From a virus: a DNA stretch of 35,444 nt. How positions within the stretch are numbered: the stretch's first letter is position 1; every line of letters begins with the position of its first letter. Where the stretch lies: IMG/VR virus record IMGVR_UViG_3300008122_000231, positions 1-35,444 of that record. One strand, given 5' to 3'. Shown piece after piece: positions 7,644 through 10,859 of the stretch. Under the pieces are notes generated by a model. It was not told the origin of the DNA and did no database searches. It saw only the letters and a list, made by a program, of their open reading frames with translations. A program made the translations under genes and the position numbers.

Positions 7644-10091
7644 ATGGACTCATTGAACAACGCGATCGCGCAGATGCGCGCGGCCGGAATGCCGGAGTTT
7701 CCGCCTGGTCATCCCCAAGTGGGGCTTGGTCGGATCACGCGTTATGGCCCGAAGAAAACGGCGTGGTATGTGTTGCACGAATTTCGCACGCGCTCTGGCC
7801 AGTTTGTCGTCGGCGGTGCTTACGGCTGCTGGGGCAAGATCGAATCGACCAAGATCGAGATCGATTGGGCCGGCATCTCGGCGGATGAGCGTGCAGAGGT
7901 GCAGCGTGCACAGCGCGCGGCCGAGGAGCGCGAGCAAGCGAAGCGATTAGAGCGATCGGGTAATGCCGCCAACCGCGCCGCGCAACAGTGGAAGGCGGCT
8001 GGCTTGGTGCCGTCGGATAATCCATACGTCGCGCGCAAGCAGGTGGTGCCCGAAGGTGCGCGTGCCTATACGGATGGCACGCTGCTGATACCAGTGTATC
8101 GATGGGATGATGACCTCGATGCTGCCCGCATTGCTGGCCTGCAGCAGATCCAGCCAGACGGCACGAAGCGCTTCACTAAGAACATGCGCATGGATGGCGG
8201 CTATTGCCGCCTTGGGCCTGTGCCGCAAGAGGAACAAACGCTAATTCTGTGCGAAGGGTGGGCGACGGGTTGTTCGATCCGCATGGCCACACAACGCAAG
8301 CATCCGGTGTTTGTTGCGTTTAACGCCGGCAACCTGGTGCCGGTGGCCATGTTGTTGCGGGCAAGGTATCCGAGCTCATGCATCGTCATTGCGGCCGACG
8401 ATGATTGGAAGACGACGCGCCCAGACAATACCCCTTGGAATCCTGGCACCGACTATGCGAGCCGCGCTGCGATCGCGTGCGGCCTTGAGCATGCGCGGGT
8501 GGTGGTGCCTGTGTTTCCTGATGCCTCGACGCGTGACGATAAGTGGACAGACTTCAATGATCTGCACTTGCAGGTGTCGCTCGATGCCGCCGCAGAGCAG
8601 CTTAATGAGTCTTTGTCGCCAGACAATTTTGATCCGATGGGTAGCGCGCGCAAGCCTTCGGTGGGGTATGAAGGCCATGATGATGGCGATGTGGCTGCAT
8701 TTGAAGCGGCGCTCGCTTCGATTCCTGATGCCGAAAATGGGCTCCAAACCCCTGTATTGCCTAACGGCAAAAACGAGGATGATCCGATTTGGGCTTGGAA
8801 GAAGGATCTGAAGAAAACGGACAAGGGTGCGACCAAGCCCGTAATGCACAACCTGATGCTGATCCTGAAGAATCACCGCGACTTGGTCGGCATGTTGGGC
8901 TTCGACCAGTACAGCGAGCTCATCATGAAAGTGTCGCCGCCGCCCTGGCACGACTACAAAGTGAAATTCCGTGTCAGCGAATGGACCGAGCTCGATGACT
9001 ATCGTCTGAGGCACTGGCTCTCGACGCGGTATTTCGAGGCTAAAGAGAAGGACGTCATGCAGGCAGTGACGCTGGTGGCACGCGAGAAGCAGTTCCATCC
9101 GCTGATCGAGAAGATCGAGGCAACACCGTGGGATGGCGAACATCGGCTGCGGATGTGGCCAATCACGTATTTGGGGGCGTGCCAGGGGAAAGACTTTGAG
9201 AAGCTGTCCGTCGATGAACGCGACCGCATTGCAGCCTATACAGAACGCGCTGGTGTGATGTGGATGGTCGGTGCAATTGCGCGGGTTTATGTTGCGGCAG
9301 ATCCCGCCACGCCAGTGGGTGCGCAAGTTGACACCATGCTGATTCTGGAAGGTGAGCAGGGCATCATGAAATCGTCAGCACTTCGCGTGCTGGGCGGCGA
9401 ATGGTTCACCGATGAGCGCCTAGATTTCAACAACAAGGATTCGCTGATGGTGCTGCAGGGCCGTTGGATTGTTGAGATGGCTGAGCTCGAGGGAATGAAC
9501 AAAGCCGAATCATCATCGATTAAGCAGTTCATTCCGAAACGGCAGGATCTGTTCAGGCTTCCATACGGCCGCATGCTGGTCAAGAAACCGCGCCGCTGCA
9601 TCTTTGCCGGCACGGTGAACCATGACGCTTACCTGAAGGACGATAGCGGCAACCGGCGATTCTTGCCGATCTCGTGCACGAAGATTGATATCGAGGCCTT
9701 AAAGCGCGACGTCGACCAGCTGTGGGCGGAAGCGCTGCACATGTACCGGCACAAGGTGACATGGTGGATTGAAGAGAAGGACCGCAGGCTGTTCGCTGAG
9801 GAACAAGAGAAGCGGTACCAGGAGGACGCGTGGCAGGAGCCGATAGAGGGCTTTATCGGTAGCCGCACGACCACCAGCACTGCCGAGGTGATGGCAGAGG
9901 CGCTAAAGATCGATAGCGCACGCTGGGACAAGATGAGCCAGATGCGGGTCGGTGCGATTTTGCGGCGCATGGGTTTTAAGCGGGTGAAGATCGGCGACAA
10001 AAACAGTCGCTGTTGGGGTTACCGGCGGGAAGTCGATCCGTCAATTCAGGGTCCAGTGGTCAAAGGAGAGCAAGATGATGCGCCGTTTTAA
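7644..10091 (+). CDS. Primase-helicase (Toprim plus VirE/D5-like P-loop domain)
   Basis: 815 residues. The N-terminal part (1-130) is of the phage/plasmid primase type. Toprim motifs follow: Glu204 in LILCEGWATG and the Asp cluster at 252-254 in VIAADDDW, with DFNDL near 303-307. The C-terminal half is a VirE-family P-loop ATPase. Its Walker A is EGEQGIMKS (about 569-577), Walker B is in RWIVEMAELEGM (about 607-618), and an arginine-rich RKPRRCIFAGTVNHDAYL segment follows. It should prime and unwind phage DNA. It is directly followed by the iteron block at 10097-10345, consistent with an origin next to its initiator or primase. The size is normal for this fused family. Confidence 0.9.
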   Translation: MDSLNNAIAQMRAAGMPEFPPGHPQVGLGRITRYGPKKTAWYVLHEFRTRSGQFVVGGAYGCWGKIESTKIEIDWAGISADERAEVQRAQRAAEEREQAKRLERSGNAANRAAQQWKAAGLVPSDNPYVARKQVVPEGARAYTDGTLLIPVYRWDDDLDAARIAGLQQIQPDGTKRFTKNMRMDGGYCRLGPVPQEEQTLILCEGWATGCSIRMATQRKHPVFVAFNAGNLVPVAMLLRARYPSSCIVIAADDDWKTTRPDNTPWNPGTDYASRAAIACGLEHARVVVPVFPDASTRDDKWTDFNDLHLQVSLDAAAEQLNESLSPDNFDPMGSARKPSVGYEGHDDGDVAAFEAALASIPDAENGLQTPVLPNGKNEDDPIWAWKKDLKKTDKGATKPVMHNLMLILKNHRDLVGMLGFDQYSELIMKVSPPPWHDYKVKFRVSEWTELDDYRLRHWLSTRYFEAKEKDVMQAVTLVAREKQFHPLIEKIEATPWDGEHRLRMWPITYLGACQGKDFEKLSVDERDRIAAYTERAGVMWMVGAIARVYVAADPATPVGAQVDTMLILEGEQGIMKSSALRVLGGEWFTDERLDFNNKDSLMVLQGRWIVEMAELEGMNKAESSSIKQFIPKRQDLFRLPYGRMLVKKPRRCIFAGTVNHDAYLKDDSGNRRFLPISCTKIDIEALKRDVDQLWAEALHMYRHKVTWWIEEKDRRLFAEEQEKRYQEDAWQEPIEGFIGSRTTTSTAEVMAEALKIDSARWDKMSQMRVGAILRRMGFKRVKIGDKNSRCWGYRREVDPSIQGPVVKGEQDDAPF

Positions 10092-10195
10092 TCAGGTGTC
10101 CCACCTGTGTCCCACCTCCAAAAATGAGGTAGGTCACCGGAAAGCCGCGCCAATGCTAGCGGTGTCCTACCGTCCCACCCGTCCCACCTCTTCCT

Positions 10196-10250
10196 CACGT
10201 ATGCGCGCACACACGCACGCGCACGCGCGCACGCACATGTGTGTGTGTAT
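10196..10250. repeat. 55-bp alternating pyrimidine-purine tract (potential Z-DNA)
   Basis: From 10196 to 10250 every base alternates pyrimidine and purine without a break. The tract is mainly CG and CA/TG dinucleotides. Such tracts can flip to left-handed DNA under negative supercoiling. It lies in the middle of the iteron-like block. Confidence 0.85.
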
Positions 10251-10316
10251 TTTAAGTAGGACAGGTAGGACGGTAGGACACCACAAGGAACGGCGCGGGG
10301 TTTCAGTGTCCTACCT

Positions 10317-10345
10317 GGTGTCCCACCTCAATAAGGTGGGACACC
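10317..10345. promoter_or_regulatory. 12-bp perfect hairpin before the putative late regulator
   Basis: GGTGTCCCACCT (10317-10328) and AGGTGGGACACC (10334-10345) are perfect complements around a CAATA loop, built from two opposed repeat units. There is no T run after it. Instead, the GGAGG ribosome site of the next gene follows (10348-10352). It may influence translation of the gene at 10359, or be a dyad of the origin. Confidence 0.7.
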
Positions 10346-10358
10346 TTGGAGGTGAATC

Positions 10359-10859
10359 ATGATTGATCGGATGGTGCGGCAAGAGATTGGTCGGCTCTTG
10401 GATAACTGGGCGCTGTGCAATGGACGGTTCAGCGGGGCACCAGTGACAAGCAACGGGGCTGGCTGGCAGCGTGTAGGTAGCGGTGCAGCGCGCGAACATG
10501 CCGCAGAAGTGCCAGTGCCGTACATCGTTGCCGATGCGCAGCGTGTGGATCGTGCACTCAAGCAGATGATGGAGCACGAGCGCGAGATATTGGTTGAGAG
10601 TTATTGTGTCGCTGGTACACAGGAAAGCAATGCGAAGGTGCGCAAGATGGCACTGCGGACCTATCAGCGTTGGCTTGCCAAGGCGGAACAAACATTCTGG
10701 GATACGTATCGGTACAAGTCGCTGGTCCTCTCACCGGTGCCGCCTGCATCTGTGCCCATTGCCGCGCCTGCTGAAACACCCACGAAGCCACCAAAGCTGC
10801 GTAGAAAACGCGCGTCTATCCTACCCGCAGCTCAAGCACTGGCGCGGCCTTTGCGGTAG
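10359..10859 (+). CDS. Putative late-gene antitermination / sigma-like regulator
   Basis: 166 residues from ATG 10359, with GGAGG 6 bases upstream. Residues 65-125 (ALKQMMEHEREILVESYCVAGTQESNAKVRKMALRTYQRWLAKAEQTFWDTYR) have the helix pattern of sigma-region-4-like HTH domains found in phage late regulators of the RinA/ArpU/Q type: 'ER.IL...Y......S....A..L.....T....L..A...F'. The C-terminal 40 residues are Pro-rich and basic. It is followed by an intrinsic terminator and then the packaging genes, the usual setting of a Q-type antiterminator. The call rests on pattern and context, not on a firm family match. Confidence 0.55.
   Translation: MIDRMVRQEIGRLLDNWALCNGRFSGAPVTSNGAGWQRVGSGAAREHAAEVPVPYIVADAQRVDRALKQMMEHEREILVESYCVAGTQESNAKVRKMALRTYQRWLAKAEQTFWDTYRYKSLVLSPVPPASVPIAAPAETPTKPPKLRRKRASILPAAQALARPLR

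Follow-up and report, generated by a model that had tools for sequence, protein, structure and literature searches.

A probable replication origin with facing iteron arrays and a conserved Z-prone tract behind the primase-helicase gene of a temperate phage

The window, the whole 35,444-bp stretch of DNA analysed here, carries a Toprim-VapE primase-helicase gene, a block of short repeats (10092-10358) and a gene for a Q-like transcriptional activator, with the terminase small subunit and further phage genes downstream (Table 1). As the first-pass annotation reported, the block sits directly behind the primase-helicase gene: the stop codon ends at 10091 and the first iteron begins at 10098. The heptamer GTCCYAC occurs 13 times in the window, against a chance expectation of 5.3 for the whole 35 kb, and 11 of these copies fall at 10098-10342. 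The top 8-mer family reaches 13 copies within 800 bp, where shuffles average 6.0 and never exceed 7. The eleven copies originally counted are all exact; allowing one mismatch brings the total to 12, arranged as four triplets in the order hairpin set, forward set, central tract, inverted set, hairpin set. The one GTAGGAC that this annotation pointed out in the C4-like region is at chance level, as two GTCCYAC copies fall outside the block.

The inner triplets face each other across the largest internal iteron gap of the window, which spans 78 bp. Within this gap, the alternating pyrimidine-purine tract is exactly as long and as perfect as first described; dinucleotide shuffles average 12 bp. 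The centre consists of a 64% GC alternating tract and ~12 AT-rich bp. The arms at 10127-10187 and 10256-10316 are 79% complementary, and the outer right set contributes to an imperfect inverted repeat whose 19-bp arms lie at 10310-10328 and 10334-10352. Rfam returned no RNA family, and the one terminator-like match, which lies within the tract, is no more than shuffles give.

Table 1. Features of the proposed origin and its neighbouring genes (positions in the window)
Feature	Position	Strand	Details
Toprim + VapE primase-helicase gene; proposed origin-binding initiator	7644..10091	+	Pfam, PHROG, AlphaFold2 model, PDB matches, covariation
Outer left iterons 1-2	10098..10116	+	GTCCCACC x2; starts 10098, 10109
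Outer left iteron 3	10128..10135	-	GACCTACC on - strand; one mismatch; completes left hairpin set; missed in the first-pass annotation
Inner forward iteron triplet	10164..10188	+	starts 10164, 10172, 10181; start-to-start spacing 8 and 9 bp
Perfect alternating pyrimidine-purine tract, 55 bp	10196..10250	.	core 10203-10236; most Z-prone site of the record
Short AT-rich segment (~12 bp)	10247..10258	.	far side of tract; far longer in most relatives
Inner inverted iteron triplet	10256..10280	-	starts 10256, 10265, 10273; start-to-start spacing 9 and 8 bp
Outer right iteron set	10308..10343	.	forward 10308 and 10320, inverted 10336
Q-like transcriptional activator gene (phrog_248)	10359..10859	+	neighbour, outside the proposed origin

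Primase scans of viral contigs, bacterial genomes and annotated phages gathered ~170 related loci, whose primases mostly share 33-47% identity with that of the window; the nearest locus in bacterial genomes, L101 from a Betaproteobacteria MAG, shares 44%. The block plan recurs behind the primase in most of these phage and prophage loci, in Pseudomonas, Burkholderia, Marinobacter and a Flavobacteriales MAG. The iteron sequence varies among loci while the layout stays. Iterons read GTCCYACC in the window, L101 and many Pseudomonas loci, GTCCAACC in L008, GTCCCATTG in L021, TGTCCCAGT in L022-L024 and L032, TGTCCCAAG in the Burkholderia loci, CCCCACC in L011-L012, GGTCACCCC in Marinobacter phage PS3, and ACCCATTGA in L180, the Flavobacteriales MAG. 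In a set of 38 loci with redundancy removed at 90% identity, the largest internal gap is flanked by two forward iterons on its left and an inverted one on its right in 31, and it mostly measures 100-120 bp. A DNA-level search of phage records using the block region gave 0 matches. The lytic phages FoX2, Mano and ECOO78 have more distantly related primases with no block directly 3' of them, which marks a boundary.

The block also keeps its place relative to the primase gene. In 147 of 151 scored loci, no more than ~460 nt separate the primase stop from the first iteron: at most 100 nt in 32, and 350-460 nt, with the iteron behind the Q-like gene, in 115. The block is directly 3' of the primase in the window, the Burkholderia loci, L008, L021, L101, PS3 and L180. 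In the window it precedes the Q-like gene, whereas in the Pseudomonas phages it comes after that gene. It is thus the primase, not the Q promoter, with which the block travels.

In L072 (6229-7600), other sequence separates the primase from the GTCCCAT iterons, which are still present 1.1-1.3 kb downstream; L081, whose primase is 96% identical to that of L072, keeps the usual distance. Behind the primase of L022, L023, L024 and L032, iterons of the TGTCCCAGT type are strongly expanded to 17-27 copies, many as hairpin pairs, which may form an array for copy control or titration. On the right side of the block, L010, L016, L044 and L098 have repeated ATTCACC/GACATT-like words ending in GGTGGCATTAAA and GTTGCTGCCA, a stretch that sits before the late genes in Pseudomonas phages.

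We compared the central tract across the family. The longest alternating run is 55 bp in the window, 42 bp in L021, 40 bp in L022, 30 bp in L014, 29 bp in L161 and 27 bp in L108, where dinucleotide shuffles of such regions average 10-13 bp; a minority of loci, L025, L072 and L180 among them, have no excess alternation in a strict shuffle test. In a simple B-Z energy model, whose energies are Z-Hunt type values good for ranking only, no site in the 35 kb is more Z-prone than the window tract, with a threshold superhelical density of -0.0146 against -0.0208 for the next site. The most Z-prone site of the whole locus falls inside the iteron gap in 28 of the 38 non-redundant loci, where gap length alone predicts 0.44. 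Alternation is found toward the primase and the highest AT content away from it in 35 of 37 loci, and a strip that is 70-90% AT flanks the tract in most Pseudomonas relatives. The tract is a conserved feature of the family, varying in strength, and it is predicted by the model to form Z-DNA. Pseudomonas loci, such as L044, L073 and L098, also share a conserved CTCTnTTTACACGAGAAA inverted repeat within the AT-rich strip to the right of the tract.

The protein encoded at 7644-10091 matches the VapE helicase domain (Pfam PF05272, E 3.8e-68). Its AlphaFold2 model (mean pLDDT 82.7) ends in a predicted winged helix at ~731-795, with three helices and two strands, the third helix comprising residues 763-775. 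Foldseek ranked staphylococcal PriRep1 with dsDNA (7pds) as its best PDB match (E 6.6e-30), and VIA-align placed primase residues 383-795, including the C-terminal region, on that structure with Z 33.4. A profile search of PDB sequences with the primase matched 7pds and no other entry (E 3.7e-90), and PriRep1 is the best match in both fold and sequence. The window protein differs from PriRep1 in its N-terminal fused Toprim primase domain; the comparison covered protein fold and sequence.

Residues in this winged helix covary with the iterons. When the iteron consensus was compared with protein columns across loci, the top-ranked column was 780 for iteron base 5 and 767 for base 7; in the window primase, the candidate iteron-reading residues are R780 and M767. 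Arginine at 780 goes with C at base 5 and lysine with any other base, with 0 exceptions in 148 loci: C makes up at least 50% of base 5 at the 113 R780 loci and at most 40% at the 35 K780 loci. At 767, M or T goes with C at base 7, I with T, Q with G, and R with A; the lone G/G case is L019, a locus without clear GTCC iterons. On a tree built from primase residues 1-690 only, 6 of 6 base-5 changes coincide with changes at residue 780 and 8 of 8 base-7 changes with changes at residue 767, matched by 0 of 3219 and 0 of 2873 simulations of independent change, respectively. Loci whose iterons have no GTCC (L011-L013, L018, L131, L138, L180) stand outside these statistics or enter them in part, and iterons in loci with low-complexity or diverged repeats, such as L008, L011, L014 and L025, were read by eye or via the GTCC anchor. 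The covariation and the model together are strong, if indirect, evidence that the primase itself binds the iterons, via its predicted C-terminal winged helix. Joint recombinational exchange of the C-terminal domain and the origin would yield the same pattern, and it would itself imply that the two must match.

We propose, with a probability of about 0.88, that 10092-10358 is the replication origin of this temperate phage, opened by a self-loading primase-helicase and built like a PICI/SaPI origin with the addition of a conserved Z-prone tract. The first-pass annotation had suggested an origin here, and the conserved layout behind the same primase-helicase, the residue-base covariation and natural VapE plasmids with the same block lend it strong support. 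The enzyme encoded just upstream would bind the GTCCYACC iterons through its winged helix, and the oppositely oriented inner sets would place two sets of initiator, probably two hexamers as for SaPI Rep, head to head across the central 75-120 bp. By analogy with PriRep and SaPI relatives, the central region would then be opened, the helicase would load itself without DnaA or a host loader, and the Toprim domain would prime synthesis. The outer hairpin sets would offer extra initiator sites and may nucleate or regulate assembly. The opening element would be the alternating tract and the adjoining AT-rich strip. In the least certain step, negative supercoiling may flip the tract to Z-DNA, or the tract may act as a flexible, easily unstacked YR-rich segment; either could help the junction or the AT strip to open. 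No DnaA box (TTWTNCACA, up to one mismatch) was found between 8851 and 11349, which separates the block from DnaA-dependent iteron plasmid origins of the RepA/TrfA type. GC skew, proposed earlier as a check, gives no origin signature at 10.2 kb, though it is confounded by gene orientation.

How new is this proposed origin? The first-pass annotation called it a candidate of a new type, which holds in part, for the Z-prone tract and for its presence in complete temperate phages; an iteron-flanked opening region directly 3' of rep is the known PICI/SaPI plan, with two iteron sets around the centre, as in EcCICFT073 (PMC6092414). In PICIs, a pri-ori plasmid is maintained and a delta-ori plasmid is not (PMC6092414), and SaPI Rep uses its C-terminal domain to recognise iterons downstream of its own gene (PMC7581432). 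As in these elements, the proposed origin lies immediately behind the rep/pri gene and has a centre with a short-iteron set on either side. The initiator, a helicase or primase-helicase in those systems, would here be the primase-helicase, with a C-terminal domain predicted to read the iterons. The window differs in that it is no satellite but a temperate phage that has terminase and structural genes; in a GC-rich, conserved alternating tract that shares or replaces the AT-rich centre; and in inner sets that face each other and are joined by outer hairpin sets. We therefore class the block, which would work like a PICI/SaPI origin, as a variant of that type and not as a member: a phage carries it, and its centre departs from the AT-rich region that defines the type. 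In the literature covered, mostly outside subscription journals, we found no earlier account of the iteron sequence, of Z-DNA with iterons, of Z-DNA in phage origins or of VapE phage origins.

Natural plasmids carry a similar block. pLAO97 (10.2 kb, E. coli) and pKNA06 (25.8 kb, Komagataeibacter nataicola) each have a VapE gene and, in gene tables that are incomplete, no other recognisable replication gene. In both, the VapE gene is followed by a hairpin set, a forward pair, a central region and an inverted pair, with iterons GTTCCACC and GGGTGGCA (pLAO97 and pKNA06). Unlike the window, their centres are AT-rich without a long alternating tract. To judge from these sequences, a VapE gene plus such a block can form a replicon. 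By description, there is a further likeness to P4 alpha with ori1-crr and to the Rep proteins of N15 and PY54, where a primase-helicase initiator recognises short repeats of its own replicon; unlike in the window, P4 ori and crr are far apart and N15-type origins lie inside the rep gene.

Whether the tract acts as Z-DNA is a separate question from whether the block is an origin. The block may be an origin in which Z-DNA never forms and the tract is only a flexible spacer that brings the iteron sets together or eases opening. YR steps bend and unstack easily, perfect alternation extends over only 10-20 bp in many relatives, and the centres of the related plasmids are AT-rich with no long alternating tract. 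We give this account a high weight, a little short of even odds, because it is compatible with the origin reading. Against it stand the excess of loci whose most Z-prone site is in the iteron gap and the CG/CA-rich composition of the tract, when AT-rich YR steps would give the same flexibility. The stronger proposal, of a conserved class of phage origin in which a supercoil-driven B-to-Z transition, beside or replacing an AT-rich unwinding element, controls or drives opening between two head-to-head arrays of self-loading primase-helicase, is tentative, and we think it less likely than not to hold.

A different role for the block would be as an operator, or supercoiling-sensitive control region, of the Q-like gene, with iterons that bind a regulator and a tract that senses supercoiling. 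In the window the block is directly upstream of the Q-like start codon, and the Q-like Shine-Dalgarno GGAGG is inside the last hairpin. The block lies downstream of the Q-like gene in Pseudomonas phages, however, no sigma-70-like promoter was found at the block, and the iterons covary with the primase. The supercoiling sensor for the late regulator at 10359, offered as an alternative in the first pass, is disfavoured because the block travels with the primase and not with the Q promoter, and we consider control of the Q-like gene improbable as the main function. Autoregulation through initiator binding could accompany origin function as a side effect.

Coding constraint accounts poorly for the repeats. 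An ORF of 95 aa (10075-10362) overlaps the primase stop and spans the whole block, and the corresponding frames are open in L101, L021, L022-L024 and L032; this ORF could be a true overlapping gene or a consequence of repeats poor in stop codons. As the cause of the repeats we rejected it as very unlikely: composition shuffles leave such a frame open in 9% of cases, the ORF has no family match, the frame is broken in Pseudomonas and other relatives, and a gene would leave both repeat orientations, the hairpins and the primase covariation unexplained. Short inverted repeats can serve as recombination, packaging or partition sites (attP, cos/pac, parS), a role that is equally hard to credit for a block that keeps to the primase gene in every group and covaries with the primase DNA-binding domain.

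An origin at this position would extend the PICI/SaPI plan, which had been attributed to satellites alone, to a broad group of temperate phages from Proteobacteria. The pairing of residues 780 and 767 with iteron bases 5 and 7 is a proposed protein-DNA recognition code, from which origin specificity and incompatibility among phages, plasmids and satellites could be predicted. The tract itself would be a natural, repeatedly conserved Z-prone element in a replication origin, where a role for Z-DNA has long been discussed and has rarely been testable.

One local detail concerns the right edge of the block. The Q-like Shine-Dalgarno is located in the 3' arm of the last iteron hairpin (10334-10357), an arrangement not conserved in the Pseudomonas relatives, and this hairpin could link translation of the Q-like gene to the origin.
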